From Syncephalis plumigaleata (taxonomy: Eukaryota > Zoopagomycota > Zoopagomycetes > Zoopagales > Piptocephalidaceae): a stretch of 41,963 nt of DNA. Made by a program: the position numbers and the translations under genes. The DNA lies in contig JAIXMF010000092.1 in the NCBI GenBank assembly GCA_025201365.1, positions 1 to 41,963 on the forward strand, given 5' to 3'. A model generated the notes under the pieces. That model ran no database searches, was not told the DNA's origin, and saw only the letters and a program-made list of their open reading frames with translations. Below are positions 17,805 through 41,963 of the stretch, piece by piece (the first letter of the stretch is position 1; each line of letters begins with the position of its first letter).

Positions 17805-17949
17805 GGATGTCCGCTATTTGGGGCGCTTGACACTGCTACGTGACCGACTAGCAGGCGTACCAGCAAGCAAGCAAGCAACAGCACCATTACAGCCATCAAA
17901 CTATGTATCAGTGCTGAAGCTTGACATGTAGACCTCATAATATGCATCT

Positions 17950-18244
17950 TCCCTATATATAGAGCCGGTATGTTGAAGTTGTCAGCACAATCTACATCAA
18001 CACACCATCCTCTTACCTTCTTCGCCTTCTACGAAAACAGGGCTGTGCCTTGGATTTACGTATCTCGCTTACGCGCATTGATTAGAACGACAACGAACAC
18101 CACGCTCTCATACACATTCTCCCTCATACGCCCTCCTATACGCTCTCTCTCTTTTACTCTCTCTTACTCTCTCTTACTCTCAAGCACGAACATCTTCATT
18201 GCGCAATTACGTCTGACATCATCGATATCTTCCCATCCATAAAA
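17950..18244 (+). promoter_or_regulatory. Promoter and leader of the LPMO-like gene
   Basis: A TATA element CTATATATAG lies at about 17953-17962. A pyrimidine-rich block of repeated TTACTCTCTC units lies at about 18138-18182, and the ATG at 18245 has A at -3 (AAAAATGA). The TATA-to-ATG distance of about 285 bp implies a long leader, or an unseen intron in it. Confidence 0.5.
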
Positions 18245-18913: not shown

Positions 18914-19292
18914 AAAGCTACCACTAAGCATTGTAATAACACTTTATTCTGCTTTGCTGGCAAAGTAGATTCTGTTTAGTTCTATTACTGTCTTGAACCT
19001 GGCGTTCTATTACAAGTATTCTAACGTCTTTTATTTTATTCGTTACTTTACTATTGCATTCTTGCCACACCATCATTAATCTTCCTCTTCCTCTTCTGCA
19101 ATACCACTTACTAGCATCACGAAATCTTATCTCTGTCGAATAAATGAGTACAAATTTGAAAGCCAAACATTGAACCAGTCTTGTATATATCACATGCTGT
19201 AGCATATTAAACTAGCGTCATTCTACTCGCATATTATCATGCTACTATTTATTTGATGCAGTCATTTTGTTTGTTTTACTATCATTGTCGAA
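18914..19292. other. Intergenic region between convergent genes
   Basis: About 380 bp separate the LPMO-like gene (+) from the 3' end of the asparagine synthetase-like gene (-). A TCTTCCTCTTCCTCTTC run lies at about 19080-19096. No gene is seen. Confidence 0.5.
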
Positions 19293-21613
19293 CTAGATTG
19301 CTCGATGCGTGCCACGTTCCTTGCCACTCTCCATCTTTGCCGTACGCGCACCAAACTGTATCGCACGCTTCCATCGTGTACTCGTGTCTTTCAAGTTTAA
19401 TTCGCATGCTGCCATTGCTCGTAGTAGCATCTTCTCTCCTACACCTCGCGGTAAGCGTGGATCCGTTTTTACATGTATCGGTAGTTCGCACGCGTAACTG
19501 ACTACATTTTCATCTAGAAATGGGAAGCGAACCTCGCGTGCTCTATCAGAAATAATCCTATCATCGCGCCCTATTCATTATCACTCCCGTTAACAACACA
19601 GCGATAGTTGCCCATGCCATTTATTCTTACCGAGATTACGCGACGATATCCTATCTATATCTAATTGCACCTATATTATCCGTATAGAGATCGTTAGCTT
19701 TACCATAAGCTACGGTAGGTGCATCTATCATTTTTACCTCATCGATAAGACTGGACCAGCCACCTCGTCGCCATGCCTCTCGATGTCGAGTATACCCGGC
19801 AAATAACTCGTCGGCTCCCAGTCCACTTAGTAACACCGGGCATTGACTGTCATATGGCTCGGAATCATCCAGATTAGCAGTGGTCCGACTGCCTTTACCG
19901 CCCGCAGCAAACCACAATGCCATGGCAATACTCTACCAATACTATAAATACAAATACAAATACAAATAGTAATCTACTCACCATATCCATGAGTGTGGTG
20001 GCTGGTGCCATCAGTTGCATAATATGCGATTTAGCCGCACAAGCATCGGCATATGGTACATTAACCTCGACAAATTGCCATGGTCGATTTGGTGCTAAAC
20101 GTCTAGGAGCAGGGCAGTATTGATTAGTGTAAGTCCATCTAATTTAGCATTCATTACACGCATACTGTAATTCTGCAAGACCGCATCGACCGGTTTTCCT
20201 ATCAGGCACTTCGTAGGCAGTTGCAGTGTTGTTTTTATTCAGTGTACGTGGGTTCTCGAACGCCACATTAATCAGATCCACCGGCTCACCCGTCGGTAAA
20301 TGTCGATCTGCCAGTGCAGCCAGACACATACAATCAAGACCACCAGAGAATAGAATGCCTAATCTGGATTGTTTCTTACTATGAAGATAGTAAATAGTTA
20401 ACAGGCGAGTATTCCGTCGTAGCATCCCAACCTTACCTATGGCCAGGAATGTCAATTACTCGACATTGCACGGCATTTGATAGTAATTGCAGTAATTTCT
20501 GTTGTGGTGCTTTTAATAATGATACATAGTTTGGATCATCCCAAGGTAGTAATTCTTCATGTATTGGCAATAAATCCTCATCTGCATCAGGTATTGCTTT
20601 GTTAAGACGACCGAATGGCAACGGCTAATACAGCAATAATGATTAGTCTATCTTATAGTAACAAATGATACTGTATTGCTTACAAGATAATCATCGGTGC
20701 TTGTTTCCACTAGTTCCGGTGATATCCATCGTGTCATCTTCATGCTATGCGGTATCGTATCATTGCCATCTAGTAATCGAGACAAGTCAAGAGAAAAGAT
20801 CCCCATCGCGGGCACTTCAGTTGCATATTCCGTTGGTAATGGCATAGCATCGTTACTTGTTGTATTATCCCGCATCCCCTCCTCATTATTAGTTGGCTCA
20901 AGTCCCACAGATGCTATAACAAGTCTATCAATATCATCTTGTCGATAATAACGCCATAACAACGACCTCCTGCCGAGACAATCGCGTCCAAACCATAGAC
21001 GACGCTGTTTAGCCTACAGAGGTACAGCACGGGTAGCTTAGTTGCAGCAAATGTGCCGTACATTCACTTACCTGGTAATAAATAAAGCCAAATGGACCTC
21101 GAATACGATGCAACACGTCTAATGGAGATGCAGCCGCGTCTAATGCTTCTAACAAACACAAGCCATCATTTCTATGTCCAATCTAGGCAGGTCATTCGTT
21201 GATATTTGCGCATCTACAATAAACTAAACATCTAGCGACTTACCTCTAGTCCAGCGAACACTTCTCCATTCCAGCATAATATATTGCCATGTTGATCTTT
21301 CAGCGGTTGTTGCGTAGGCTGCGGTCCTCTTAAATGAAGCGTTGCTCCTTCAAAGTACATATCAATCATTCTATCCGTCGATGCAGCATCCTCGTTTACA
21401 CCGCTATCCAATCTACACTGACAATATCCAGTAGCATCTGGACCTAGTGTTACTATGATTAAACAACTGTATTCTATACAATAGCGTATTCCAATTACCA
21501 CGTCTTCGATTAGCTTCAACAAGTGGCTGCCATTCCTTTAACGCTACACTACACGGCTGTTTCTCAATAGACGATATCGTGCCAACTTGTAAGGCAAATA
21601 CAATACCGCACAT
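19293..21613 (-). CDS. ASNSD1: Asparagine synthetase domain protein, ASNSD1-type
   Basis: Ten exons: 21613-21499, 21443-21244, 21182-21072, 21013-20684, 20624-20437, 20378-20166, 20102-19982, 19932-19704, 19654-19631, 19570-19293. They sum to 1809 nt, 602 aa. The protein opens MCGIVFAL, so Cys2 can be the nucleophile of a class-II glutamine amidotransferase domain. NRRRGPD, GNILCWNGEVFAG and RGPFGFIYY follow. The synthetase half has the PP-loop LFSGGLDC, then PVDLINVAFENP, EVPDRKTG, RPWQFVEVNV, TTLMDMSIAMALWFAA and SGLGADELFAGY. The C-terminus has ISSRNLGRDDRI, VRFPFLDENVVSY and LPRGVGEKMLLR. These blocks follow ASNSD1/YML096W-type proteins rather than classical ASNS. Their substrate is not well established, so asparagine synthesis should not be assumed. 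A 24-nt micro-exon (19654-19631) is needed to join ISSRNLG to the rest. Confidence 0.88.
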
Positions 21614-21856
21614 TATAGCTAGACAGAGAGTACAATTATAGAGAGCAGCAGTAGTAGTAGTAGCAATTCGTTGTTGTTATTGTCGTCACTTGTTGAATGT
21701 GTTATGATCACGTTCGACTGACACTTTCCATTTCATCAATGTCTTTTCTTTTTCTTCTTCAACTATTGGTCGTATTATTCCACTACCCTATTACTACCAC
21801 TATTGCTATTGATACTATATCATTTACTAGTAGCTAGTCACTATTGTTTAACAGAC
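21614..21856. promoter_or_regulatory. Divergent promoter with (AGT)n microsatellite
   Basis: 243 bp lie between the divergent start codons of the ASNSD1-like (-) and PAM2/SMR (+) genes. A GCAGCAGTAGTAGTAGTAG run lies at about 21644-21662 and a TTTCTTTTTCTTCTTC tract at about 21745-21760. The interval should drive both genes. Confidence 0.5.
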
Positions 21857-23736
21857 ATGCAGTCGGCCTTTACTGATAGCAATAATACTCGTCGCTCAGC
21901 CATTACCGAGCTAGCTTCAGAGTTAACGGAATTACGTGTAAATGCTACTGAATTCATACCTACATTCTCACTGTCAGGTAGGCTTGACGTGACAACAAAC
22001 AAGCAGAATGTGCCTTTGCCACGACGTGTAACTAACTAATTAAACTAATTAAAGAAGGAACACCATTATTCACTACGGTATCCTCGTCAGTAGCGCTGCA
22101 AAGTATGGAATTGACGTCGAATTCATGGACGAGCCAGCCACCAAGTGTCACTGCTGATAATCAATCGTCGTATCTTTGGAAGTCTAGTAGTTCGGCAGCA
22201 ACAACATGGAAACGACCAAGTTATACGTCTTCATTCGCTACTATTGATTCAACATCGTCATCTTCTGTGAATATAATGGATAATGACTCGGAACAAACGT
22301 TCGATGCATTTGTTACTGATTTAACGCGTAATCTTCTCGAGTTAACAGAAATTGAAGATGACACAGAGCAAATTTATTCGTCTAAATCAACATGTACAAA
22401 TACTAATACGACTAATAACGACAATGATACGATACTCGATGCCAAAGTAGAAGAGGCGCCACAAGCATCAGAATCATCGACCAATATGACACAGGTCTTT
22501 GAACCAGAGAGTATGTCGCCGTTTCAGCTATTGCAAGTGGTATTCTATGATCGACCAGCCGACAGTATCAATAAACTACTTGAAGAGAACAATTATGATG
22601 TAGAAGCGGTGTTCTCTGCAATTACAGGCATTGTACCGAGTAGTAGCAACGGCAAAGACGCGGATGAATCGACAGAACGACGATTAAGTCGACGGGAAGC
22701 AAGTAAACCGCGTGGTAATCAAATATGTCGACACTTCCTGGATGGAGGATGTTTTCGATCCGACTGTTGGTATAGCCATGATCTAGATGCATTTCTATGT
22801 AAATTCTGGATTCGTGGCCAGTGTCTTAATGCGCAGTGCCCATTCTTACACGGCGTAGATGAAGAAGTGGCAGCGCGTTTTCTCTCACAAAGCGAAGAAA
22901 TCGACGGTAGTGCAAGCGGATGCGGTGGCCATTCACGTAATAAAACGCAGAAACCGCCTGATATGTCTGATTTCCCTCAATTGACGGCATCGAATTCAAA
23001 GGAATCAGCAGCCAGGTCTGCAAACAACAAGAAGACTGCAAACAAATCTAAAATACCACTACCATTCGCTAAAGTTGCTCACAAAGCAAATACTAGTATA
23101 TCTAGCAATGGTAGTAACAATACAGCCATCGGTGCTTTACAATATACTCAGCCTACACCATCTACTAAAACACCAAGCACGGCCAAGCAAGAAAAACACG
23201 ATCAGGGTCAATCGCTTGCTCATCCAGGTCTGGCTTATCGTACGGTATCATTACCACGCTTACCTACAGGTGGTAGCGTGGCAGCACTTTATTATAAATA
23301 TCGTAGGGAAGCTACAGTTCAATTCCGCGCACGGTCTGCGTATTTGCAACGTGCTCATGAAGCGTATCGTCAAGGCAAATACGCGGTGGCTAAGCGATTT
23401 TCACTGCTAGGTCAAGGCCATAATGCGGAAATGACAAAGTATCATCGTATGGCTGCCGAACAAATATTCTCGGCGCGTAATCAACCAGGACGAGAGGCAA
23501 TTATTGATCTTCATGGACTACATACAGACGAAGCTATCTACTTCTTAGACGCTCGACTATGGGATCTTGAAGCTGAACACACGCATCGATGTTTCGTCTT
23601 TACGGGATCGGGCAACCATTCCAAGGGTCAGGCTAAATTATTACCGGCAGTTCTTGACTATCTCATGAATGAAGGATTTACCATGGCTGATTGTTCGCCT
23701 GACCGACGCGGTGGTATGCTTATTGTTGAATGGTAG
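21857..23736 (+). CDS. PAM2 - CUE-like - two CCCH zinc fingers - DUF1771 - SMR domain protein
   Basis: Two exons, 21857-21977 and 22055-23736 (1803 nt, 600 aa); an acceptor 3 nt further on is also possible. Exon 1 carries LRVNATEFIP (residues 26-35), which matches the spacing of the PAM2 motif that binds the MLLE domain of poly(A)-binding protein. A CUE-like helical segment follows (SPFQLLQVVFYDRP...NYDVEAVFSAI, about 195-230). Next come two CCCH fingers, both C-x7-C-x4-C-x3-H (CRHFLDGGC...H and CKFWIRGQC...H, about 263-302). After a Ser/Asn linker there is a DUF1771 helix (YRREATVQFRARSAYLQRAHEAY), then a SMR domain with IIDLHGLHTDEA (about 523) and FTGSGNHSKG. SMR domains can be RNA endonucleases and CCCH fingers bind RNA, so a role in PABP-linked mRNA surveillance or decay is inferred. 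Domain order recalls plant CID5-7 and N4BP2-like proteins. Confidence 0.85.
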
Positions 23737-24411
23737 CCTAGAGAAAATAAAATAAACTAGTTTGGTGAATTAAAAATGATAGCTGCCAATAAATGAAGCG
23801 GTAGTAATACTTGTTGTAATGCGTAAGCAGTATTATTACTACTATTGAAATAATTGATGTATGGTCCAAGTTTTGAATACATATGTAAAAGTAACGCACC
23901 ACGTAGATCATCATAATAATCCATTGATGCACTGCTATGGCTAGTACACGCAAGCGTAGATGTGTAGTGGGATTAGTTATTAGCATATGCGACATGGATC
24001 ATCATGAAGAGTGCCTGATGTTGACAACAACAAGTCAGTCAGGTTTGTTTCGTATTAAATACTTTATGATATTGACAACGACTAGTAGAGCATAGCTTGT
24101 ACGTGGTCAGTAGCATTACAGCTTGTTGCCTAGTTGTTTACATGTTTATCGAGTGTGCATTACAGCTTGTTGCCTAGTTGTTATTGCGCTATCGAGACAA
24201 ATTGAACATCATGAGTTGGTTCTCTATCTATCTCTCATCTATTACATAGCCGTGCACTCGTCGTGCTATTCAACTGCACGATACATTATAATAAACAAGC
24301 TTGTACACATCAATGACTTGCCGGTGAACATTGCAATCTATAAGGTTTATAATAAACACGAATGAGTATGAAGAGAAGGAGATGGCTGGCGTGGATCTGC
24401 TGCCACAGCTG
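23737..24411. other. Intergenic region containing the outer edge of inverted-repeat arm A
   Basis: Convergent 3' regions of the PAM2/SMR gene (+) and the TPR gene (-). The duplicated sequence starts at 23885; 23737-23884 is unique. A minus-strand ATG frame of 85 codons (23995-23738) runs across the junction, and its C-terminal part differs in arm B. I regard it as probably non-coding. Confidence 0.5.
24114..24182 (+). repeat. Direct repeat, two 25-bp copies 44 bp apart
   Basis: The unit beginning CATTACAGCTTGTTGCC occurs at 24114-24138 and 24158-24182. The same pair is present in arm B (about 40638-40706, opposite strand), so the small duplication predates the large one. Confidence 0.8.
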
Positions 24412-26552
24412 CTATTTATCCATGTTGTCGATCATACGTCGTAGTCGTTCGTCTACACCTTGCACGCCACTGGGACGAGCATCAATTGCTATTCGGCGCT
24501 GATCCAATTCCAAATAGCTAGTCGTCATATTGCGAAGCATGTCTCTGTAGCGGTGATCGTCAATGCTATAACTGGAGCATAGTTGATGAAGCACCGTGGA
24601 CATCACCGCGAGCTGTTGTCGCTTACAGCGTAGCTGCGTGGACCAGTTGCCATCGGTGAGCATGTCCAATTCGTATGCATGTTTCCGTGGCCGTATTGCC
24701 GTTGCAGCTGCATTGGTGGCTGCCTGTTGCATCGATGACGGGAATATCGCTGGGTTGTTGAGTATGGTTAGCGCGTCATTGTGACGATTGTTCTGCAGAA
24801 ACAGCACAGCAATGTAAATATCCGATAGAAATCTATAAACAGAGCGTCAATACACGCTGCTAGACGATTGTGTGATGACACGCGAGTAGACGTCTTACTT
24901 GATACGCTGTGCCGCTATCTTGGCTTCCTCCTCCTCCTGATCGTCTCCCGTAAGCCATGCTGTGTCAATGTCAATGAACTGGCGTAATAGTAGCTTGGCC
25001 GTGGCGTATTCCTGTCGCTGTAACTCGCACCAGGTCCATGCCACTAGGCCATAGGCATACGGTAGACGATACGTGGTGGGTAGTCCACCGAGTCCGTTCA
25101 CCAGCTCATTAATGTCTTTCGATTGCACGTCCACCGTGGACTCATCGAGTAGCATCACCAAATACTGGCGGAAACATGCCGCTGCATACTCCAATGAATA
25201 GGCTGTGTCGCGACTAATTCTGTTGCCAATCATTAGCAAGCAGCAGTCGATTGTCTGCTCTACTTACGTTATATTTAGTAGCTGTTCTAATGCATCAATC
25301 ATTCTACGATGTATATCGGATATTCGTGAGTGTGATCTCAATTGGTACTGATGTCTATCCTATAGCTTTTACATGAGCTATCCATGCATTCATTATTATT
25401 CTTCTACTGCTACTACTTACTAATTCATCAACGTATAAATAAATAATAGCCTCGCCTAGTAGTAACCAGTAGATGGACGACGTGTATTGCTGTTTATCCA
25501 GTTGTCTAACTAAAAACTCTTCTACCTGATTAATGGTGGCGATCAGCTGGCCCGTGACCAGTTGAACTAGACATCGATTGATAAACAATGCCTCGCGTAT
25601 TGAACAGCAGCCATGTTGCATACGATAGACTAGCATGCCGTTAGTTTATAGTAAATTAGTAAATAAACATGCACACATGCGTCAATAGTTGCTACTTACA
25701 TTGACCACGCGTCCGCTGTTTCTCTTCTCTATCCAAGAGTGCTGTTGCTTCATTAAAGGCGTACGCCGCAAGTCCCCATTTACCCTGTTGCAAGTAGATG
25801 CATCCGCGTGCATTCTGATCAATCGCTCGAGTGTCTGCCGTGTCCACGGTCCAGTTCACCAGGTCATACGGCGTATCCGTCTGATAGCACGCGAGGGCCA
25901 ACTGCGAACGTAAATGCCAATGAGCCACGTAAAGCGGACGATGCGTATCTTCGTGCGACTCCTCGGGAATGTTCAACTGCAGTAGATTGCCTACGGCATC
26001 CCATTTCCTACCGGATGCCAGCTGGACACGCGCCTCGTATAAGCGATAAACAATGTCAAAGTAGCCTGGCTCGTCTGGCGTTGCGTGCTTATCCACTGAG
26101 TCGGGCGCTAGTTTCCCGAAATACTCGATAGCGCATCGTATGTTGCGTTCGCCGAGGAACAAATCAAGCGCCAGCAGTACGAGCGACACCTCCAACCGTG
26201 ATTCAGCCTTACGCTCGTTAAAGCATACCGCTTGCAGTATGGTCAGCGCTTTCTGAGGCCGATTAGCGTAGAAACAATAGAGCGCGCGATTGAACTGAGC
26301 GATAAACGTGGAATCAGTGCTGCGCTTCCCGTCAGGAATTGCTTCGTGCAGGTCAAGCCACTGTTCAAAGGAGGCGGCGTATTTCTGTTGGGTTGCATAC
26401 CATTGCGCAACTACGAGATTACGCTTGACCAGTTCGTTGCCACCGTCAAGCAGCTTGTCTAGTTCGGTAAGTGCCACGATTGCCTGCTCGTATTCACGCT
26501 CACGAAAGGCAACTGTAGCTTCTAGGGCCAGCTCACGCGATACGGACGACAT
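24412..26552 (-). CDS. TPR protein resembling CCR4-NOT subunit CNOT10 (intact copy)
   Basis: Five exons: 26552-25700, 25629-25421, 25347-25268, 25219-24899, 24832-24412; 1884 nt, 627 aa. The ATG at 26552 is the first in a frame open further upstream only through GTG. The protein is almost all helical with TPR-like pairs: LALEATVAFREREYEQAIVA at the N-terminus, STFIAQFNRALYCFYANRPQ, then ARGCIYLQQGKWGLAAYAFN and C-terminal SDIYIAVLFLQNNRHNDALTIL. The last two resemble the corresponding CNOT10 repeats (NNxGCIH...K..LA..YF and LY..EA.LLL). CNOT10 pairs with CNOT11 on the NOT module and is missing from budding yeast. Confidence in TPR is high and in CNOT10 moderate. The gene lies 375 bp downstream of H4 on the same strand and is duplicated in arm B. 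Confidence 0.6.
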
Positions 26553-26927
26553 TATTAGGGAAGGCGAGAGGGTGGTAAACACACAACGTATAATAAATCA
26601 ATTAGACGAATGACATGACAAGACGTTAGATGAGATGATAGAGAATATGATACAAAACTAGAACATTGATGCTGTTAATGATGATAATGATAATGATAAT
26701 GATGATACGTTTATATGAAACCGTTTCCGCAAACGGATATAGTTTAATTGCTGTACTATACAGAAGAGCGAGCTAAGCAAAAAATAATGCCAAAGTGAAA
26801 AAGTATTCGTCGTCGTCGTCATCATCAGTGGTGAGACGTGGAACAAATACCAATAACAACACGAGAGAATGAGAGTGCGCGTGCGTGCGTGTGTGCGTAG
26901 GCGCTGGCGAGAGTGCAAACGAATGGT
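26553..26927 (-). other. H4 3' region and TPR-gene upstream region
   Basis: 375 bp between the H4 stop and the TPR start, holding the 3' end of H4 and the promoter of the TPR gene. It contains (ATGATA)n at about 26677-26706 and GTCGTCGTCGTCATCATC at about 26809-26826. The same sequence is present in arm B. No gene is seen. Confidence 0.55.
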
Positions 26928-28128
<1,201 letters not shown>

Positions 28129-28587
28129 ATGTCACCACTACCATCATTCATGTCTATTCTGACGCAGATTAGAACGTGTGTGCGGACACGTTAGTCGTCT
28201 TTGAGATGCGCTTTTGCAGGCCGTCTCGCCTAACATATCATATATACACAATCATCATTGTCCTGCTGTGCCCCATAGGCTTCTCTTTCTCACCGGCCTA
28301 CCTGCTCAATGTCCCTTCCTCTCTGGCGTGTCCCGCGCGCCCTTTGTTTATGGTCTCTTTGGTGATGTTCGTTTTTGCTTGTTTCTCTGGGCATTGTCAG
28401 CGCCGCTTTCTTATCTCCTCCTACTCTATTTCTGCTGGTGCATGCGTGCATGTGTAATAATAATACAATCTCTATCGTTTCCGCATTCATATTGTGCAAT
28501 TCTAAATGTTTGTTTATCATGATGTACTCTTGTATTTGTTTTGTTTGTTTGTTTACGCGAATAATACGCGTGTATCTTGTTTTTATT
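28129..28587. other. Intergenic region between convergent H3 and AOS1
   Basis: About 460 bp, CT/GT-rich, holding the H3 3' region. Open frames in this stretch have no recognisable content. TTTGTTTTGTTTGTTTG runs lie near 28536-28553. I did not find a metazoan-type histone 3' stem-loop. Confidence 0.5.
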
Positions 28588-29966
28588 TTATTTTAGTGTA
28601 TTAATCAACCCTGTGCCTTCAACGCCATTATATGCAAAGAAATTAGCCACCGGTAGATCCTTGCCTGATACCACTTTGAGTATCTCCTGTGCGAGTATTC
28701 CTCCTAATATCGCGCATACTGGTGCAAATTCTACTTGGCTTGCATCCGCCAATTGTCTAAATACTCGATGGTTCACGTTAGCAACGTTTTTTACTAGTTC
28801 TTTTTTTCTCTCTCTTTTTTTACCTGATCAATTCATCAGGAACTACAGTTTCTGCTACCCCCATCGCGTCAGTTACGCGTTTCCTTATTATTTTTAACTG
28901 GTTGAGATCATTCGCGTCCTCTGCTTTCGGTAAACGCTGATGTTCAGTCTCAAACTCCCACAATGCTAACACAAGGATTATAATAGTTAATTTTGATGTA
29001 GCTTCTAAGCTTTACATATTCAACCTACTTCGTAATGTAAAATAAAGCGGTGATACTTTGCGTCTCAGCTGCTTTGCCGTTAATCCCGTCCATATTGCTG
29101 CTAGTGCTGACGCCAATGACACATACACTTCCGTGTGCTCAGTTCTAATTGTACTCTTCTCTGCACCTGCTTTACCTGCTACTTGTTGCTCCCTTGATTA
29201 TAGCAATATGTCGATTAATGATAGATCCCGTCTAGTAAACGCACTTACTCTATGTATCTATGTGTAGCCAAATCACTAAAGATATACCCAAATGTTCCAT
29301 AGGTTTGTGCCGAGAAGAATCCAATACTATTTGTTCGACATACTTCATCTAATGTCACCTGTCGTGTGATGTACCAGTTAGTTAGTAGAGAGTGCTACAT
29401 CGTCATACGAATAACTACTTGGTATAGCGTACCAGCTGAGGCAATGCTACGCCTGACCAGCATATAATGTTGCTTTTATCGAATTGCTTCACGTCCAGTT
29501 CACGCGTGTTCATGCAATACACCTCAATGTTTACGCGTGGATTCAATTCGCGTAGCGCTTTAGCTGCGACTTCAACACGCTATTTTACAAGTACGCCTTA
29601 GTATATTACTAGATGACTAGCTAACTGACTAGCTAGCTAGCTAATCAGCTACTAACCGGTTGACCAACGTGTGCTTCCGTAAAGTAGAACTGCGCTTCTA
29701 GATCTTGCTCTCGTATTAACACATCGTCCACGAGGATTAGACGACCAACACCCGCTAATACGAGGTTTTTACAAGCCTCGTTGCATAGTGCAGTATAGCC
29801 TGCAAACACGACCGTTGCTTGACGAATTCTACATTGACCGTAACGGCAATTAAGCATAGTGCTTCCTCTTTAGCCTATTGTTACTCTACCTCTCCTGCGA
29901 CTCTAGTCCCCATAAACGAATCTGACGATCATAGAGGGCGGCTTCATCTTGCGTAATAGTGGCCAT
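28588..29966 (-). CDS. AOS1: SUMO-activating enzyme subunit 1 (AOS1/SAE1)
   Basis: Seven exons: 29966-29890, 29828-29657, 29579-29433, 29358-29249, 29192-29029, 28965-28824, 28756-28588; 981 nt, 326 aa. The N-terminus ITQDEAALYDRQIRLWGLE is diagnostic for the E1-like family. ACKNLVLAGVGRLILVDD, EQDLEAQFYFTE, RVEVAAKALRELNPRVN and FGYIFSDLATHRYIE follow. The C-terminus has SPLYFTLRTLWEFE and VEFAPVCAILGGILAQEILK, both typical of AOS1. With UBA2 it adenylates SUMO. It lacks the catalytic Cys domain, as expected for this subunit. The usual GxGxxG nucleotide loop reads AGYTALCNEA and so is degenerate. The acceptor of exon 5 (AAG at 29193) is non-preferred; a TTAG some 50 nt downstream is an in-frame alternative. 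Confidence 0.9.
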
Positions 29967-30378
29967 GATTGAATAAATGTAGTAGTAGTAGTGACAACAG
30001 CAATCATAATAATGGTAATAAATGAATAAATAAACGATGGCCATGTCAGATTTAGATACGCATTAAATTAAATTGTAAGCAGCATTTGATATGTACATAA
30101 AGAGTAGTTAAAGTGTATATACCCTTACTTATCGTAATCGTATATCTCGTCGAATAATGCATTAAATTGTACTTTCATTGTACGGTACGGTATTTAACCG
30201 TATTCTTAATGTAAATACGTAATAAAATACATTATAATTACAAACAATCTAAATTATATTCGAAATCATTAGTCAATATTCTATAATGTTATGTGCATAT
30301 ATTTGCGTTCATTTATATTTTATCAAATACACATAATGATATAGATATATATTAACAATTTCGCGTATATTCATTTAT
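29967..30378. other. Intergenic region, AOS1 promoter
   Basis: About 410 bp of very AT-rich DNA upstream of AOS1 (-) and downstream of PSMG4 (-). A GTAGTAGTAGTAG run lies at about 29980-29992. No gene is seen. Confidence 0.5.
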
Positions 30379-30862
30379 TTATTTACTAGCAAGTGTCTCT
30401 TTAAGCCACGTCAAAAGAATACGCTCTGCATACACGGTGATATCCGTGTCGGTGGGTAACTCCCAGCTTACGTAGAAGGGTGTACGGAAGCGTTGAACTA
30501 GATTGACGTTTTCCTTTTTATTAGCCACACCATTGACACTTGACACGTAACCGCTACTACACCTACCTAGTCGACGTCCAAGTTGACAGGCAAAATCCTC
30601 GCTCGTATCGCCCAGTACTGTAGTGGCAAATGCCGCGCCCTTTCAATGCTACAGGTAAGTGATTTGTCTCGTTAGATTATGCACGACTTGCAATTACCTG
30701 TGTCGTGTTGGATGAGGGTATGGCCAGCGACATGTTCGTCAATACAGGCGTACTGCTTACCCATAGCATAGCACTGTCGGGTAGGTTTAGCAGCTGGAAA
30801 TACACGGGCGTGTCCATAAACCGCGTCGTGTGTTGACAGGAAACTATGGCCGAGGTAGTCAT
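30379..30862 (-). CDS. PSMG4: Proteasome assembly chaperone 4 (PSMG4/PAC4)-like
   Basis: Three exons: 30862-30698, 30639-30567, 30497-30379; 357 nt, 118 aa, close to the 123 aa of human PSMG4. Matching blocks in order are TPVYFQLLNLPDSAMLWVSS (compare VHFHVMRLTDSLFLWVG), NMSLAIPS, TTVLGDTSEDFACQLGRRL and FYVSWELP near the end. The family helps assemble the alpha ring of the 20S proteasome together with PAC3. The second exon uses an AAG acceptor, which is unusual but forced by the reading frame: a TAG slightly upstream brings in a stop. The start codon is 416 bp from that of POL1, in the opposite direction. Confidence 0.8.
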
Positions 30863-31277
30863 GTGGCAGTACTATACGATAATGATAAACAGCAACAACA
30901 AGCTAGATGATGAAAGAGGAAGGAGAATGCTCGTTGATCAGTATGTGAGACACTTATTAATAGTACGTGGATTGGAAGCTAATAATAATAATAATAAAGA
31001 TTTGTCGTCATTCCTATGCAACTTGCACTTTCACAACTACTGTACTATGCCGGTATACATGCGTAAACGCGTTGAATCCTCATACAGTTCATGTATGCAA
31101 TACAAATAGCGTAATAGCTCCGTAGTATGAACGCGAGATATATTAATTTGTAGGCGCGCTTTTTTTTTTCTTATTTCCTCCATTCTCCCTTTCATTATTT
31201 CCTTTGATTTTTCCGCGTGTATTAGCCTCCTATTACTATTTCTTTCCATTAACCGTTGCCGGTAGCTAACGACAGTC
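30863..31277. promoter_or_regulatory. Divergent promoter between PSMG4 and POL1
   Basis: The interval contains an (AAT)n run near 30982-30997 and a long T/CT tract (about 31158-31205) before the POL1 ATG. A plus-strand ATG frame here (30846-31109) overlaps PSMG4 and has no recognisable content. No MCB-type ACGCGT box is obvious within it. Confidence 0.45.
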
Positions 31278-34200
31278 ATGGATAATCGTTCTCGTCGTAG
31301 TAAATCCTCTAAGCAGAATGATCGTTTCGCTCAATTACGAGAACTGAAACGAACTGGCCGTACGGGTCTGACCACCTATGAGGTAAAGGATGAGGCGATA
31401 TTCGACGAAGTAGACGAGAAGGAATACCAGGAAATGTTTAAACAGCGTGTTATGGAAGACGACTTTGTCGAGGACGACGACGGTCATGGCTATGTCGACT
31501 ATGGACTTGATGCGTGGGAGGACTCGGATCCTGCTGGTAGTTACGACGACGACGAGGAAGGAGCCTCTGGCGCGGATAGCAAGGAGAAGCGTAAAGCGGA
31601 TAAGCGTAAGAAGAAGGCGGTCTACAAGCAAACTCGCGACACTATACCTGTCAAGGCGGAACATCAGATTGGCGCGTTTTTCCAACGAGGACGCACTGAT
31701 GGCCATAAAAAGGTAGTGTATCAGTTGCCGAGTAGTATAGCAAAAGCAATAATAAGCCGATCTAATACAATATATGCAGGTCACTACTGATGCACAGGAT
31801 GATGCATTCATGTCAAATTTACTTGGTGATCTTGACCAGGCTATTAAGTCGGAATCTACGATAGATACGAATAGTCAAATGTCTGGTCAATCCATAGCAG
31901 CTACCCATAATGTCGCATCGATATATCGTTCTAAGCCAGCCAGTAGATTAGCAAACTCGAGTGTAAAGTCAAAGATGGAGCTGCTGGCACCTATTACACT
32001 ACCTGACGATCCCATGTCATCTGATTATACGACGAGCATAGAAGCACCGGTAAGCTGACAGCAGCTCAATTGGCCGTATCTAACATATACATATATACAT
32101 ATATATAATAGAAGATGTCGCCGATAGATATGAAACCATCATTGAATACTGCAAGCATGTCCGCAACATCTGAACCGGTGGCAGTCAAGACAGAAGAGAC
32201 GATTGCGGAAGACTTTGACAAATTAATCAATGACGTCGACTGGGCCGACATGGATATGGACATTGACATGGACGTTGACACGGATGCGGATAATGACAAT
32301 AAGCCAGCAGAAACCAAGGCGCAACCAACTATATTTGCTAATGTGGATAAGAATGCCGATTGTACAGATTGGACAGCTGTTCCTATCCAGTCGTCAGCAG
32401 TACCAGCGCCAGATATTCTGACTGATACTGCTACTACAACATCGTCATCATCGTCATTTACTCAGAGTAGCCAGAGTAGTCAGAGTAGTCAATGGAGTCA
32501 GGATACTTCGATACTGGAATCAGATGGCACATTACGTATGTACTGGTTTGATGCCTATGAAAAGAATGGAACGGTATATGTATTTGGTAAAGTAAGTATA
32601 TATTCATCATAATTGAAACCAATTAATAATCTTATAAACAATGTATATATATAGATCTATCATCGAGCATTGGGTCGATTCGTTAGCTGTTGTCTTACGG
32701 TGGCCAATATCGAGCGTAATGTCTATTTCCTCAAACGAGACACCGTACTCGATCAAGGTAAGCGAGTAGAATAGTGTATGGTACATATCGATTAGCAAAC
32801 ACTAACAATGCCACGCAATAGATGATCAGAGCGTGACGTTCGATGCATTGTATGAAGAAGTCGGAAAAGTGTGTCAGCAGCATCGTATTTCACGCTGGGC
32901 AGGCAAGGAAGTAATGCGTAAATACGCGTTTGAACTACGAGATATACCGGCCGAATCCACTTATCTTAAAATGGTGTATTCCTATACAGGTAGTAACATA
33001 TAGTGAGCAGTTACTTGATTATCTAATACATTGAACTGGTTATAGAATCTGCTTTACCGGCAGATCTCACGGGACGGACGTTCTCTCATGTCTTCGGTAC
33101 ACACACAAGTGCTATGGAGCAATTCATCATGAAGCGTAAACTAATGGGACCATCATGGCTCGTTATCAAAAACCCCAATCTATCATCTCGTAATGTAAGT
33201 GACTGCCAATGACAGCGATGCAATTCATTGCCGCGTATTAACATCATCCAGTTATCATGGTGTAAAGTAGAAGTATCGATTAGTGATCCAAAGCATGTTC
33301 AAGTGCTACGTGAACTGGATGCATCCGATGCCGTATTACCACCACCGCCATTAACCATAATGAGCTTGTCGTTACGCGTTGTAATGAATCGGCAGAAGCA
33401 TGTTAATGAGATTGTTATGGGTAGTGCATTAGTGTATCAACAAGGTAAAACTACCATTTATTCATTCGTAGATGTATAATCTAATCGGATGAGCGCGCTC
33501 TAGTTAATATCAATGATCCTACACCGGTGGAGAAACTACCACATGAAGCGTATTCCGTAATTCGTCAACTAAATAATACGCCATTTCCTATGGGATTGAA
33601 TCAGCTACTACAGAAGCATAATTTACGCACTGAATTGGCTAAAACAGAGCGTGCTTTACTGAACTATTTAATTAGTAAGCGATGTCTATGTGTTTGTTGA
33701 GAGAGAGCTTGTCTAACATGCACGCGTATGTGTATGTGCTTGTATTATTGCCATTTAGCAATGATCTATAAAATAGATCCCGATATCATTGTAGGGCATA
33801 ATTTCCTAGGATTCGATTTGGATGTCCTACTACATCGTATGAAGGCAAATCAGATTGATACATGGTCTCGTCTAGGTCGTCTTCGCCGTACCATGTAGGA
33901 TTTGTTCACTTCTTGTAGCGCGTATTAATATTAATATGAACATTATCGTTACTATTGTTATTACATTATTAGGTGGCCCAAATTACAAGCAGGTGCTGGT
34001 GGTATGGGCGAGACGACATTCGCGGAACGTGCCATAGTTAGTGGCCGTATTATTTGCGACACATATCTGTCGGCTAAGGTAAGTTCACGTCATCACGATT
34101 ATATGTCATATATTTACTCTTCATATATATAATCCACTAGGATTTGATCCGATCAAAGAGCTTTCGTCTCACGGAGTTGGCGTCAAGCCAGTTGAAGATT

Positions 34201-37040
34201 CAACGGGAAGACATTGAATTTGAGCAGATACCTAATTATTTCAAATCGGCCAATTTGCTTGTTCATCTAATTCGACATTGTGGATTCGACAATTACTTGG
34301 TTATTAGTCTAATGTCGAAGCTTCAAGTGTTGCCACTTACACGCCAGTTAACCTCATTGGCGGGTAATCTATGGTAAGTGTAATCGGTGCATGATGTACG
34401 AGACAATGACTAACTAGTCCATGCTAACAGGGCTCGTACCATGTCGGGTGCAAGAGCAGAGCGTAATGAATATCTACTGTTGCACGAATTTCATCAACGT
34501 AAATTTATCATACCAGATAAATGGCATGGTACAGGCAATGCTATAGCGATAGATGCTAATGATGAAGGTGAGTAGTCATAGTAGTAATGGCAGCAATAAT
34601 AATGGCAACAATATATTACTGTAGGGTCGAGACCAAAGACCGAGGGCAGACGTAAACCAGCCTATGCAGGCGGTCTTGTACTGGAGCCTAAGAAAGGATT
34701 CTACGATAAATACGTGCTTATGCTTGATTTCAACAGTCTATACCCATCGATTATTCAAGAGTTTAATATTTGCTTTACCACCGTGGATCGACCGGTAAGT
34801 TTGCACTAATAAAAAAGAAGCTAGGCTGATGCTAATGAAACGAATGCAATCCAGCTCAATAGTGAACAAGTGCCTGAAGTGCCGGATAGCGATTTTGAGA
34901 CCGGTATTCTACCTCGATTACTAGCCACACTCGTTGATAAGCGTCGACAAGTGAAGCGTCTAATGAAGGATCCCAAATGCACTACCGTAGAATACTCGCA
35001 ATACGATATTCGACAATTGGCGCTAAAGTTGACCGCCAATAGTATGTACGGTTGCTTAGGTTTTACCAATGCTAGATTCTACGCCAAATCATTGGCCATG
35101 CTCATCACGTCAAAGGGTCGAGAAATTCTACAGAGTACAGTTGAACTGGCCGAATCCAAAGGCTTAGATGTAGGCTAATGATAGAGAAGTGACTAGAAGG
35201 ATAGCTTACAAACACTTGTTTAACTAGGTTATATATGGTGACACCGATTCTATTATGATCTACACGAATACCGATGATTTGAATCAAGTTAAAGAGATTG
35301 GACAAAGCCTGAAACGGGATGTCAATAAGCGATACCGCTTATTAGAGATTGAAATGGACGGCTTCTATCGTCGTATGCTATTACTGAAGAAGAAGAAGTA
35401 TGCCGCATTAATGACAGAGGAGAAGAATGGCAGTCTGGTAACAACCATGGAGACGAAAGGTCTAGATCTCGTGCGACGTGATTGGTGCGAGCTATCTCAT
35501 GATGTATCCGAGTAAGTATGCTATCTAGCAGTTGTGATCAAGCTATAACCGTTTGTGCCTAGTTATGTATTGAAGCAGATTCTATCGGGTGATGGACGAG
35601 AAGAGATTCTCGATCGTATACATCAGTATTTAATGACGGTTGGACGTGAGACACGAGGCGATCTAGTACCCATTGATAAATTTGTTATTAACAAGGTGAT
35701 TTATTGTATATGAGTATATGGATATGTATAGGATAAATAGTTAACATTGCGGTATTTTGTATTAGGGATTGACCAAGCATCCTAATGAATACGCTGATGC
35801 CAAGAGTCAACCGCATGTTCAAGTAGCAAAGCGAATGATCCTCAAAGGTATTAGTGTTCGTACAGGCGACACAGTGCCATTCGTTATTTGTCAACAATCG
35901 GCCGTGACCTCGGAGACACAACCAGCAACTGGATCGTACGCAGAACGAGCACATCATCCCGATGATCTACGACGACCAGGATCCAATCTTACTATTGGCA
36001 AGTAGATGCTGGATTACCCTACAATATAGGATAGCTAATAAGCGTTGTATAGACTTTGAATGGTATCTGGGACAGCAGGTGCATCCACCTGTAGCACGTC
36101 TTTGCGCACCCATCGAAGGTACTGATGCTGGTCGATTGGCCGATTGTCTAGGTAAATAAATACACTCCAGATGGTATCGTGTACTAGCTACTAATGCTAT
36201 GCTGATCTTGATTGTATAGGATTGGATGCGAACAAGTATAGATCAACGACAATGGAAACTACGCAGGCTAGAGAGTTCGTTACACTGGATTCGCAAATTA
36301 CCGATGAAGAGCGATTCCATAGCGTGGACAAGTTCTTTGTTCGTTGTCCATTCTGTCAAAAGAGCAATCTATTCCATGGTGTAGCGCTGAACAAGGTACG
36401 TATCATTATTATCAAGTACATGTATATCATAGTATCTAATGGTGTATACATATATTAGACGACGCCCGAATACACTGGATTGCAATGTCCCAATAACGCA
36501 TGTCAGGCTATCTTGCCTGTAGGTTCCATTGGATTCCAGTTGAATAGCACGCTACAAAAGCACATCCGCAAGTATCAAGAAGGCTGGCTTCTATGTGACG
36601 ATCCCTCCTGTCAAACGCGTACTCGAATGCTTTCAGTACGTGGTCGTCGATGTGGACAAGCGGGCTGTCGTGGCATGTTGCGCTTAGAGGTAGGTGGATT
36701 AGTTTGCACTTATTATCATGGGATATTTACAATGTTCATACCTTTAGTACTCGGATACCAGTCTGTATAATCAGCTCTTGTATCTTAGTCGTCTGTTCGA
36801 CTATGAACGTGCTCGTGGACACTCTACAAACGATGAAGCTATACAAGGTAATGTAAACGACTTGTATGATCTCAATAGCATCTAACATCACATGAAACAG
36901 CCCAATTAATGAGTGTAACTATCGATGAACGCAAGGCACTTGCTCAACTTGGCGGCATTGTTAATCGATACTTGGAGCGTAACGCTCGTCGCTACGTTGA
37001 TCTGGGCGCTCTACTCTCGTTTTGTCGCTTAGCCATTTGA
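31278..37040 (+). CDS. POL1: DNA polymerase alpha catalytic subunit
   Basis: Twenty-two exons: 31278-31712, 31780-32049, 32112-32591, 32655-32757, 32822-32989, 33046-33194, 33252-33444, 33504-33674, 33759-33894, 33973-34078, 34141-34373, 34431-34567, 34625-34794, 34855-35169, 35228-35511, 35563-35695, 35766-35997, 36053-36151, 36220-36395, 36459-36689, 36748-36847, 36901-37040. They sum to 4461 nt, 1486 aa (human POLA1 1462). The N-terminus is acidic and disordered, with the [13 protein letters not shown] motif. The exonuclease-like domain includes [19 protein letters not shown] (about 660). Polymerase motif A is [17 protein letters not shown] (about 895), motif [10 protein letters not shown] (about 976) and motif C YGDTDS (1025-1030). 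The C-terminal CysA/CysB modules show [21 protein letters not shown] and CGQAGC. All catalytic motifs are intact, so this should be the functional replicative primase-polymerase subunit. The intron at 35998-36052 is GC-AG. Confidence 0.95.
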
Positions 37041-37480
37041 TAATGTAAAAGGACATTTGGGTGTAAATGAATAAATTAATAAAAACTGCTAGAAGTGATT
37101 ACTAGTTTTAATGATTCCGTATTTGCTCATTAATGGTTCCCCTTTTTTTATCACCTTTCGTTGAAGTATTTTTACACACTTGCCATTTCCTCATTTTACG
37201 TAGAAATGCTTTGCACACCATTTACACACAAACTACGTAGAATCGAAATGCACATAGCTAGCCATAACATCACGTGATGGTATAAACAACACACACCAAT
37301 CAACACTAGTTATTTCACGTGATTAATTATTTGGATTTTCCTCTGATCCTATAAAGGGGCGCTCCCCACCCTCCACCGTCAAGGCGATCATTTTTCGGAT
37401 CGTTTGATTTCTACTACCTGCTGCCTTTGTCGTTTACTCTCAGCTTTAACCCACTCTATTCTTGCTTATCATAACACATC
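37041..37480 (+). promoter_or_regulatory. Promoter of the arm B histone H4 gene
   Basis: CATCACGTGATG lies at 37268-37279 and a second TCACGTGA at 37315-37322. CCAAT is at 37296-37300 and TATAAAG at 37350-37356, about 125 bp before the ATG. A CT-rich leader runs from about 37405. Outside the last 29 bp the sequence is not a copy of the arm A H4 upstream region, yet it has the same element types and TATA spacing. The first part of the interval is the POL1 3' region. Confidence 0.65.
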
Positions 37481-37894
<414 letters not shown>

Positions 37895-38269
37895 ACCATT
37901 CGTTTGCACTCTCGCCAGCGCCTACGCACACACGCACGCACGCGCACTCTCATTCTCTCGTGTTGTTATTGGTATTTGTTCCACGTCTCACCACTGATGA
38001 TGACGACGACGACGAATACTTTTTCACTTTGGCATTATTTTTTGCTTAGCTCGCTCTTCTGTATAGTACAGCAATTAAACTATATCCGTTTGCGGAAACG
38101 GTTTCATATAAACGTATCATCATTATCATTATCATTATCATCATTAACAGCATCAATGTTCTAGTTTTGTATCATATTCTCTATCATCTCATCTAACGTC
38201 TTGTCATGTCATTCGTCTAATTGATTTATTATACGTTGTGTGTTTACCACCCTCTCGCCTTCCCTAATA

Positions 38270-40409
38270 ATGTCGTCCGTATCGCGTGAGCTGGCCCTAG
38301 AAGCTACAGTTGCCTTTCGTGAGCGTGAATACGAGCAGGCAATCGTGGCACTTACCGAACTAGACAAGCTGCTTGACGGTGGCAACGAACTGGTCAAGCG
38401 TAATCTCGTAGTTGCGCAATGGTATGCAACCCAACAGAAATACGCCGCCTCCTTTGAACAGTGGCTTGACCTGCACGAAGCAATTCCTGACGGGAAGCGC
38501 AGCACTGATTCCACGTTTATCGCTCAGTTCAATCGCGCGCTCTATTGTTTCTACGCTAATCGGCCTCAGAAAGCGCTGACCATACTGCAAGCGGTATGCT
38601 TTAACGAGCGTAAGGCTGAATCACGGTTGGAGGTGTCGCTCGTACTGCTGGCGCTTGATTTGTTCCTCGGCGAACGCAACATACGATGCGCTATCGAGTA
38701 TTTCGGGAAACTAGCGCCCGACTCAGTGGATAAGCACGCAACGCCAGACGAGCCAGGCTACTTTGACATTGTTTATCGCTTATACGAGGCGCGTGTCCAG
38801 CTGGCATCCGGTAGGAAATGGGATGCCGTAGGCAATCTACTGCAGTTGAACATTCCCGAGGAGTCGCACGAAGATACGCATCGTCCGCTTTACGTGGCTC
38901 ATTGGCATTTACGTTCGCAGTTGGCCCTCGCGTGCTATCAGACGGATACGCCGTATGACCTGGTGAACTGGACCGTGGACACGGCAGACACTCGAGCGAT
39001 TGATCAGAATGCACGCGGATGCATCTACTTGCAACAGGGTAAATGGGGACTTGCGGCGTACGCCTTTAATGAAGCAACAGCACTCTTGGATAGAGAAGAG
39101 AAACAGCGGACGCGTGGTCAATGTAAGTAGCAACTATTGACGCATGTGTGCATGTTTATTTACTAATTTACTATAAACTAACGGCATGCTAGTCTATCGT
39201 ATGCAACATGGCTGCTGTTCAATACGCGAGGCATTGTTTATCAATCGATGTCTAGTTCAACTGGTCACGGGCCAGCTGATCGCCACCATTAATCAGGTAG
39301 AAGAGTTTTTAGTTAGACAACTGGATAAACAGCAATACACGTCGTCCATCTACTGGTTACTACTAGGCGAGGCTATTATTTATTTATACGTTGATGAATT
39401 AGTAAGTAGTAGCAGTAGAAGAATAATAATGAATGCATGGATAGCTCATGTAAAAGCTATAGGATAGACATCAGTACCAATTGAGATCACACTCACGAAT
39501 ATCCGATATACATCGTAGAATGATTGATGCATTAGAACAGCTACTAAATATATCGTAAGTAGAGCAGACAATCGACTGCTGCTTGCTAATGATTGGCAAC
39601 AGAATTAGTCGCGACACAGCCTATTCATTGGAGTATGCAGCGGCATGTTTCCGCCAGTATTTGGTGATGCTACTCGATGAGTCCACGATGGACGTGCAAT
39701 CGAAAGACATTAATGAGCTGGTGAACGGACTCGGTGGACTACCCACCACGTATCGTCTACCGTATGCCTATGGCCTAGTGGCATGGACCTGGTGCGAGTT
39801 ACAGCGACAGGAATACGCCACGACCAAGCTACTATTACGCCAGTTCATTGACATTGACACAGCATGGCTTACGGGAGACGACCAGGAGGAGGAGGAAGCC
39901 AAGATAGCGGCACAGCGTATCAAGTAAGACGTCTACTCGCGTGTCATCACACAATCGTCTAGCAGCGTGTATTGACGCTCTGTTTATAGATTTCTATCGG
40001 ATATTTACATTGCAGTGCTGTTTCTGCAGAACAATCGTCACAATGACGCGCTAACCATACTCAACAACCCAGCGATATTCCCGTCATCGATGCAACAGGC
40101 AGCCACCAATGCAGCTGCAACGGCAATACGGCCACGGAAACATGCATACGAATTGGACATGCTCACCGATGGCAACTGGTCCACGCAGCTACGCTGTAAG
40201 CGACAACACTCGCGGTGATGTCCACGGTGCTTCATCAACTATGCTCCAGTTATAGCATTGACGATCACCGCTACAGAGACATGCTTCGCAATATGACGAC
40301 TAGCTATTTGGAATTGGATCAGCGTCGAATAGCAATTGATGCTCGTCCCAGTGGCGTGCAAGGTGTAGACGAACGACTACGACGTATGATCGACAACATG
40401 GATAAATAG
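38270..40409 (+). pseudogene. CNOT10-like TPR gene, frameshifted duplicate
   Basis: Second copy of the TPR gene, with exons 38270-39122, 39193-39401, 39475-39554, 39603-39923 and a fifth from 39990. All splice sites are preserved. Compared with arm A, one G is missing after position 40208. The frame then ends in HSR and a stop at 40216-40218, giving 563 aa instead of 627 and removing the last helices. The lost frame resumes and runs to the original stop at 40407-40409. Two substitutions in exon 4 (39688, 39823) change Val to Met and Ala to Thr. The first three exons show no difference. A truncated product could still fold in its N-terminal TPR part, so early pseudogene is the best description. 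A sequencing error at one base is the main alternative. Confidence 0.7.
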
Positions 40410-40935
40410 CAGCTGTGGCAGCAGATCTACGCCAGCCATCTCATTCCCTTCATACTCATTTGTGTTTATTATAAACCTTATAGATTGCAATGTTCACCGG
40501 CAAGTCATTAATGTGTACAGGCTTGTTTATTATAATGTATCGTGCAGTTGAATAGCACGACGAGTGCACGGCTATGTAATAGATGAGAGATAGATAGAGA
40601 ACCAACTCATGATGTTCAATTGTCTCGATAGCGCAATAACAACTAGGCAACAAGCTGTAATGCACACTCGATAAACATGTAAACAACTAGGCAACAAGCT
40701 GTAATGCTACTGACCACGTACAAGCTATGCTCTACTAGTCGTTGTCAATATCATAAAGTATTTAATACGAAATAAACCTGACTGACTTGTTGTTGCCTAT
40801 ATCAGGCACTCTTCATGATGATCCATGTCGCATATGCTAATAACTAATCGCACTACACATCTACGCTTGCGTGTACTAGCCATAGCAGTGCATCAATGGA
40901 TTATGATGATGATCTACGTGGTGCGTTACTTTTAC

Positions 40936-41404
40936 CGTAAGACTTTGATGTTACAATATACAAGTTCAATTTATTTTACGTATCAGCTAGTAACATCCAA
41001 TACCAAGTACTAAAACTCTTTAGGAATAGCAACGTGTTTATTGATTTATCAATCAATAAGGTGTTTTGGTGTACGTGTAAGGTAGTATAAACTAGATCAT
41101 ATATAGATGCATATAAGAATGCTTGAGAATCAGTATACCAACTCTACACCAACAGTTAGCAGCTATGTTAATGAGTGACGCAGCAGAATTATTACTATCT
41201 AGATTATATTTGATCACTATATTATGCACGATCATTTGTATATGCATTACACTTTAGCTATAACAGGGCATTTTAAATAGTACTACGAATGGATTTCTCT
41301 TAGTAGTTGTTCGTTTATTGATCGTGTTTACGCGAAAACATCAAAGCTCAGTATCAATACTTTTAGTATATTGTATTGAGCTGATCACTTTGCTTGTACG
41401 GCAG
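40936..41404. other. Unique flank beyond arm B
   Basis: AT-rich sequence with no supportable gene. It follows the abrupt end of the inverted repeat at 40935. It is probably the 3' flank of the kinase-like gene on the minus strand. Confidence 0.45.
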
Positions 41405-41963
41405 TTAGTTCGTCGTTGGCAGTTGGCCCGGTAATGGTTGTGTGTTTTCTAACGGGTTAGTACGTGGCAAAGATGGAAGCTTAGCAATAATGCTTCTAAC
41501 TCCAGCAAATGTATCTGTTACTTCAGGATAATAGATCTCGATGAACGATTTTAAAAACAATCTTCTTCTTTCAAGAAGTTCATGAATTCTCAAGGAGGAA
41601 TATTTTCGATGATCGGTGATTAGTTTAAACTCATATCCATAATATATTCCGCAGGTTCAATGTGGAGAATAGTTCCGGAAAGGACTCTCACATCTAAGCA
41701 AAAGACATTAGATAAACCGCTATGCTTAAATGGCTCGTTTCTATCTACATCCTGAGACCCAATCTGGATACCATCCTAATTTATGAGCCATCTTATGTGC
41801 TTCTATAAGCTGCTTCAAGTAGCTCTCCCTCAATCCTGGAGTTTCATGCTTGATCGAGCGAGAAAAAATTGAATAATCTTTTTGATAGTTGATGTATTCT
41901 ACCAAATAGCAGACATTATCCTTCTCTGTATAATATACTATTGGACAGCCTATAGATCTCATG
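41405..41963 (-). pseudogene. Partial kinase-like gene running off the window, possibly broken
   Basis: Minus-strand frames at 41962-41741 and 41593-41405 look like pieces of one gene. The first reads CPIVYYTEKDNVCYLVEYI, then PGLRESYLKQLIEAHKMAHKLGW. This is the pattern of a protein-kinase-like hinge (xxLVxxYI) and the helix preceding the catalytic loop (LIEAHKMAHKLG). Where a catalytic HxD or HGD segment would follow, the frame hits a stop (WYPDWVSGCR*). A different frame continues with DVDRNEPFKHSG...VFCLDVRV. A plausible C-terminal piece (IHELLERRRLFLKSFIEIYYPEV) ends at TAG 41405. I could not connect these pieces with a consistent splice, so the gene may be decayed or contain an intron I misread. 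The N-terminus lies outside the window. Confidence 0.35.

Follow-up and report, generated by a model that had tools for sequence, protein, structure and literature searches.

A histone H4 gene and its neighbour in an inverted duplication of Syncephalis plumigaleata, with site patterns pointing to ectopic gene conversion in one of two haplotypes

How do two histone H4 genes of one genome come to share, in inverted orientation, some 3.5 kb of sequence including a neighbouring gene, and to stand behind different promoters? The question is raised by a stretch of 41,963 nucleotides from Syncephalis plumigaleata (assembly GCA_025201365.1, contig JAIXMF010000092.1, positions 1 to 41,963 of the forward strand), here called the window, which is the whole of contig C376 in a 32.6-Mb assembly with 383 contigs. 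A first-pass annotation of the window had described two collinear, almost identical arms, each with H4 and a tetratricopeptide repeat (TPR)-like gene, and had suggested that they are possibly maintained by gene conversion. Here we compare the arms with a second copy of the locus in the same assembly. This comparison is best read as a recent ectopic gene conversion, confined to the window haplotype, in which about 2.1 kb of arm A was replaced by the sequence of arm B.

23885 to 27370, minus strand: arm A (A1), with H4, the intact TPR-like gene and the 3' flank (blastn self-match, four-arm alignment)
37452 to 40935, plus strand: arm B (B1), the inverted copy, with H4 intact and the TPR-like gene frameshifted (blastn self-match, four-arm alignment)
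25270 to 27341, no strand assigned: putative conversion tract in A1, with B1 as the donor (site patterns, pairwise counts, approximately unbiased (AU) tests)

A blastn search of the window against itself bore out the arms as first described, aligning 37452-40935 with 27370-23885 at 99.369% identity over 3486 columns (20 mismatches, 2 gap openings, E=0). The inner edges also lie where they had been placed, 29 bp before the H4 start codons at 27341 (minus strand) and 37481 (plus strand), and beyond them the flanks of the two arms fail to align as a whole in the four-arm alignment. On its outer side arm A ends about 150 bp beyond the stop of a CCCH/Smr gene recognised by Pfam (gene end 23736). 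A 601-base probe from this outer end found four places in the assembly, namely both window arms and two on contig C168. The stretch C168:70001-115875 is allelic to the window, with three long blocks of 96.6, 97.2 and 98.5% identity and a repeat-rich first 1.8 kb of the window at 88.8%. It carries the same inverted pair with the same junctions and the same 10-kb spacer in the same orientation, such that long near-identical inverted repeats around a unique spacer are present on both contigs. The window and C168 are treated here as two haplotypes, of one isolate or of two strains, and the C168 arms are named A2 and B2. A 44-bp tandem unit at 24113-24156 occurs in two copies in A1, B1 and B2 and in one copy in A2.

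Ectopic (interlocus) gene conversion is the non-reciprocal copying between paralogues, and its mark is a local switch: copies that elsewhere group by locus group there by haplotype. The four-arm alignment contains 17 sites that divide the arms two against two, and such a switch is seen among them. Nine group the arms by locus (23915, 24020, 24199, 24301, 24360, 24378, 24393, 24613 and 24999; two of these are 1-bp indels), and all nine lie in the outer part of the arm. Six group them by haplotype (25526, 25942, 26072, 26621, 26892 and 27245, the last a 1-bp indel), all in the inner part. A 4-bp change in microsatellite length is also common to A1 and B1. Thus the paralogues share alleles by haplotype within the bounded stretch 25526-27245 and group by locus outside it, from 23915 to 24999. 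AU tests agree with this division: for 23885-25000 the haplotype tree is rejected (p 0.0006; third tree p 0.04), and for 25501-27341 the locus tree is rejected (p 0.005).

Pairwise differences were also counted over gap-free columns. A1 and B1 differ in 18 of 1567 columns in 23885-25500 and in 0 of 1837 in 25501-27341; for A2 and B2 the corresponding values are 29/1567 and 19/1837. The rise in divergence away from H4 that the first-pass annotation had noted is therefore found in the window, without a comparable gradient in C168. By segment, from outer to inner, A2 and B2 differ in 11/471, 9/597, 9/499, 8/500, 7/600 and 4/737 columns, and a marked drop is confined to the last segment, which holds H4. 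Between 25270 and 27341 the gap-free columns of A1 and B1 are free of substitutions, and the two arms differ only at a microsatellite (27169-27178). The nearest outer A1-B1 substitution is at 25269, and the tract therefore spans at most about 2.1 kb within the arm. It may reach the inner limit of homology, with a lone A1-B1 difference at 27366, past the H4 start codon. A tract centred on H4 had been proposed; the tract does adjoin H4, but starts at the inner limit of homology and extends from there for about 2.1 kb towards the outer edge.

The earlier annotation had left the direction of overwriting open, and the site patterns are explained most economically by a transfer from B to A. Within 25501-27341, 16 changes are private to A2, 3 are private to B2 and 5 split A1 and B1 from A2 and B2, so that A2 looks like unconverted A sequence. 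Conversion from A to B in the window haplotype is disfavoured, since it would imply an inner branch between the paralogues of at most 3 changes in 1837 columns, compared with 1.5-1.9% in 23885-25000. Phase switching between the two contigs was rejected by reasoning, because a locus-type site stays locus-type after the alleles are swapped. Five substitutions private to B2 lie within 160 bp (25307, 25314, 25398, 25460 and 25465 in arm A coordinates); this cluster was perhaps copied from an unsampled allele.

Several observations weigh against a B-to-A conversion. Two of the 17 sites (24808 and 25269) match neither grouping, the interval 25001-25500 favours the third tree (p-AU 0.03 for the other two), and over the whole arm the AU test rejects no tree. 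The direction is read by parsimony among the four arms. In addition, A1 and B1 differ within 25270-27370 only at the microsatellite and at 27366, and substitution-free inner parts over about 2.1 kb are also what an assembly error would leave if reads from arm B had gone into that part of A1. Against such an artefact stand those same two differences, by which A1 is no plain copy of B1, and the separate assembly of four arms, each with private changes. Yeast long-read assemblies of such repeats are described as accurate (PMC9731477), which may hold for the present assembly as well. We regard the artefact as very improbable.

The H4 genes themselves leave room for another explanation, in which purifying selection on H4 alone creates the likeness near it.

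26928 to 27341, minus strand: H4-A, two exons (27341-27258 and 27155-26928), 103 amino acids (H4 search; exon ends computed from offsets)
37481 to 37894, plus strand: H4-B, two exons (37481-37564 and 37667-37894), 103 amino acids, protein identical to H4-A (H4 search)

A search of the assembly for H4 delivered eight matches, two exons in each of four genes, all inside the four arms. H4 is intact in all of them with an identical protein of 103 amino acids, and its coding sequence is nearly invariant, with a single silent difference in B2, as selection would have it. However, the identical tract also includes the H4 intron, the spacer between H4 and the TPR-like gene and much of the TPR-like gene, the other haplotype differs there in 19 of 1837 columns, and the grouping of A1 with B1 is left unexplained. 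As the sole cause of the gradient, selection is disfavoured by the site patterns and AU tests, and we give it next to no credence.

The neighbouring gene marks the difference between the two arms.

24412 to 26552, minus strand: TPR-like gene of arm A, five-exon model, 631 amino acids, intact in A1 and A2 (hand-made model; weak Pfam TPR matches)
38270 to 40218, plus strand: TPR-like gene of arm B, frameshifted, 567 amino acids in B1 (hand-made model)

A 1-bp deletion common to B1 and B2, at the site corresponding to 24613 in arm A, cuts the reading frame, and B2 has three additional 1-bp deletions within the modelled coding exons. Some 0.65 to 0.9 kb separate this frameshift site from the end of the conversion tract, and a tract that stopped there would have left arm A with an open TPR frame. 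In the simplest reading the functional gene is the one in arm A, and the copy in arm B is a passenger in decay; the B1 frame, which retains 567 of 631 amino acids and may still function, counts against this. The Pfam TPR matches are weak and under the curated cut-off, PDB sequence searches with the protein gave nothing significant, and a model of its first exon by AlphaFold, run without an alignment, has a mean predicted local distance difference test score (pLDDT) of 50. The protein may resemble CNOT10.

Between the alleles A1 and A2 the full-length TPR-like gene shows a synonymous divergence (dS) of about 0.041 and a nonsynonymous divergence (dN) of about 0.007. For the compared coding part dS is 0.039 between the paralogues A2 and B2 and 0.033 between the alleles A1 and A2. 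Paralogues thus about as similar as alleles, together with the one conversion supported by site patterns and AU tests, would also suit an ancient pair under recurrent concerted evolution, in which conversion keeps resetting the arms as in the flip/flop repeats of Saccharomyces. Such a history appears improbable to us, as the second haplotype is not homogenized (A2 and B2 differ in 19 of 1837 inner columns, A1 and B1 in none, among two haplotypes), and the outer part retains the B-private frameshift in both. To say that the arms are maintained by gene conversion accordingly goes too far, since a single event has support and the second pair is unhomogenized.

A conversion of arm A by arm B leaves the question how arm B arose, on which the promoters bear.

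27463 to 27514, minus strand: H4-A promoter core, CCAAT / TCACGTGA / TATAA (motif positions, pattern scan of the assembly)
37270 to 37354, plus strand: H4-B promoter core, with TCACGTGA at 37270 and 37315, CCAAT at 37296 and TATAA ending at 37354 (same basis)

H4-B is a canonical H4 with its own promoter behind the gene for DNA polymerase alpha (POL1), unshared with H3. The distances from the start codon are similar at the two loci, with CCAAT at -173, TCACGTGA at -144 and TATAA at -126 for H4-A, and -185, -166 (with another TCACGTGA at -211) and -131 for H4-B. The window contains three copies of TCACGTGA, all in H4 promoters, compared with 0.59 expected from base composition; the motif occurs 0 times in 80.3 kb of other DNA (ten satellite-related stretches, a non-random sample) and is absent from 10-kb stretches around the solo H3 genes (L031 and L032, on C58 and C223). 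Two contigs carry it as well, in an H2A-H2B spacer and in the neighbourhood of an H2A.Z-like gene. The composite pattern CCAATN{3,33}TCACGTGAN{5,35}TATAA has five matches in the 32.6-Mb assembly, four of them at the H4 loci of two contigs, and the reversed pattern has 0. The fifth match (C1:451803), with no reading frame above 102 amino acids within a 3-kb locus, is taken as chance; the H2A-H2B spacer holds a near variant which the pattern missed. A histone-type promoter ready at locus B, as previously claimed, is thereby supported.

Two features of this evidence speak against its full weight. The composite was devised after both H4 promoters had been seen, so that its finding them is no test, and what it tells lies in how seldom it occurs elsewhere. 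When the two promoters are compared, the best local match scores 32, compared with a maximum of 30 in 500 dinucleotide shuffles, but a reverse-complement control also scores 30, only slightly less, and most of the match is therefore the palindromic site itself. Under looser scoring the three values become 24, 22 and 16.

The promoter evidence supports locus B as an established, older H4 locus; that B was overwritten as such, as first proposed, gains support from it and is not proven. In a simple inverted segmental duplication, by contrast, about 3.5 kb of A would have been placed beside POL1 at a site that was never an older H4 locus, with a promoter that pre-existed or evolved there and with a later conversion that is real. 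In its favour, the arms take in a gene other than a histone gene together with flanking DNA, as expected of a plain duplication, and the data searched, in which no relative is included, show no older H4 at B. Against it, the H4-type composite, rare in the assembly, stands before H4-B at distances from the start codon that match those at A, though the flanks cease to match 29 bp before that codon, and an arm divergence of 1-2% leaves little time for a promoter to evolve. We hold simple duplication to be rather unlikely, if well worth keeping in mind.

Allelic divergence varies along the locus. It amounts to about 2% when summed over the unique stretches 10354-23853 and 28854-37353, and there are zero allelic differences in the H4-H3 promoter (27246-27705) and in 37090-37455 upstream of H4-B, which adds to the support for B as an established H4 locus. 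In eight 500-bp bins covering 37354-41353 there are 20 allelic mismatches (about 0.5%, compared with about 2% elsewhere). The stretch of low divergence, 37090-41628, takes in arm B, the promoter before it and about 0.7 kb on the far side; it could have arisen as a tract of allelic conversion. Low divergence between B1 and B2 as a mark of the arm itself was dropped, because the stretch starts about 360 bp into the unique promoter and ends about 0.7 kb past the outer edge.

The full account, an older H4 locus B, copying from A to B and a later conversion from B to A, is in our judgement probable. It would begin with two canonical H4 genes, one at locus A with a divergent promoter shared with H3 and one at locus B, solo behind POL1. 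Repair of a break in the solo H4-B, or past it, would have proceeded by invasion of H4-A, followed by one-ended, break-induced copying that started in the H4 homology and ran through the TPR-like gene to 23885, where the outer end would have been joined to non-homologous DNA. About 3.4 kb (H4, its TPR-like neighbour and the 3' flank) would thus have passed from A to B in inverted orientation, with the B promoter retained. Afterwards the TPR copy at B would have decayed while H4 stayed intact at both loci, and later, in the window haplotype, the inner 2.1 kb of arm A would have been overwritten by arm B. The anatomy suggests break repair for the original copying, as this would explain the inner junction at H4, the intergenic outer junction, the inversion and the retained B promoter.

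The nearest described system that we found is the flip/flop region of Saccharomyces chromosome XIV, for which 4-kb inverted repeats with within-strain homogenization and re-inversion are reported (PMC9731477). Both systems have near-identical inverted repeats of about 4 kb that hold genes, with a spacer of 24 kb there and 10 kb here, and in both the copies of one strain group together via conversion. In Saccharomyces both orientations occur, and homogenization has happened repeatedly in different strains and species, whereas here it affects one haplotype and part of an arm, and a single orientation is seen on two contigs. Inversion of the spacer, which the first-pass annotation had raised, finds no example: the second orientation was not seen on either contig (n=2). 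Two genes for canonical H4, one of them divergent from H3, are usual in fungi (PMC10878826), and the present pair resembles hhfA/hhfB of Aspergillus nidulans in having an H3-paired H4 with a shared promoter and an unpaired H4. It differs from the A. nidulans pair in that the genes are 10 kb apart and inverted, with 3.5 kb in common including a downstream neighbour. The literature searches brought up no description of a comparable inverted duplication of H4.

The spacer had been described as POL1-AOS1-H3. Pfam confirms POL1 and H3, and the third gene is of the ThiF family, consistent with AOS1.

27718 to 28128, plus strand: H3, divergent from H4-A (Pfam Histone, E 9.4e-47)
28591 to 29869, minus strand: ThiF-family gene, candidate AOS1, in the spacer (Pfam ThiF)
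31278 to 37040, plus strand: POL1, multi-exon, stop at about 37040 (Pfam DNA_pol_alpha_N, DNA_pol_B, zf-DNA_Pol)

The ThiF matches score 40.2 bits at 29648-29869 (above the cut-off) and 21.9 bits at 28591-28827 (below it). Between this gene and POL1 a minus-strand frame (30382-30642) weakly matches proteasome assembly chaperone 4 (16.8 bits, cut-off 31). A second, solo H3 on C58 and C223 differs by two residues from the H4-paired H3, and the H4 search of the assembly had no match on these contigs. On C57 a divergent H3-like gene in pieces (L034:4811-5308; 48-80% identity to H3) is perhaps a CENP-A. Near the start of the window (405-2069) a frame of 554 amino acids with a signal-like start and KDTGKDTG-type repeats has no Pfam match, and its repeat region differs strongly between the window and C168. 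Rfam delivered no match within the window at gathering thresholds.

A 109-bp satellite array begins 3.1 kb outside arm B2 (L009:3921-5875, that is C168:113921-115875) and runs with 18.1 copies to the contig end. Across the assembly 189 matches to the unit were counted; they are spread over at least 10 contigs, and while some are close to contig ends, others lie within contig C1. The idea of a purely subtelomeric satellite was dropped because of these copies inside C1, and a scan of the fetched loci found no run of three or more TTAGGG units.

Known biology is not overturned by this locus; read as gene conversion, it is a tidy and unexceptional example, with no difference in kind from ectopic conversion between other duplicated genes. 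Its value lies in two haplotypes of one assembly, which separate ectopic conversion from common ancestry and from selection on H4, and in a CCAAT/TCACGTGA/TATA layout seldom met in this genome except at H4 genes. A more speculative thought, which we offer with considerable reserve, is that one coding sequence is kept behind two independent promoters: recombination would swap H4 and its neighbour with each promoter retained, keeping the H4 protein matched and its regulation free to diverge, and longer tracts that break the TPR-like gene would be selected against. If B is the older locus, a histone gene would have been replaced under a retained promoter, with the neighbouring gene as a marked passenger.

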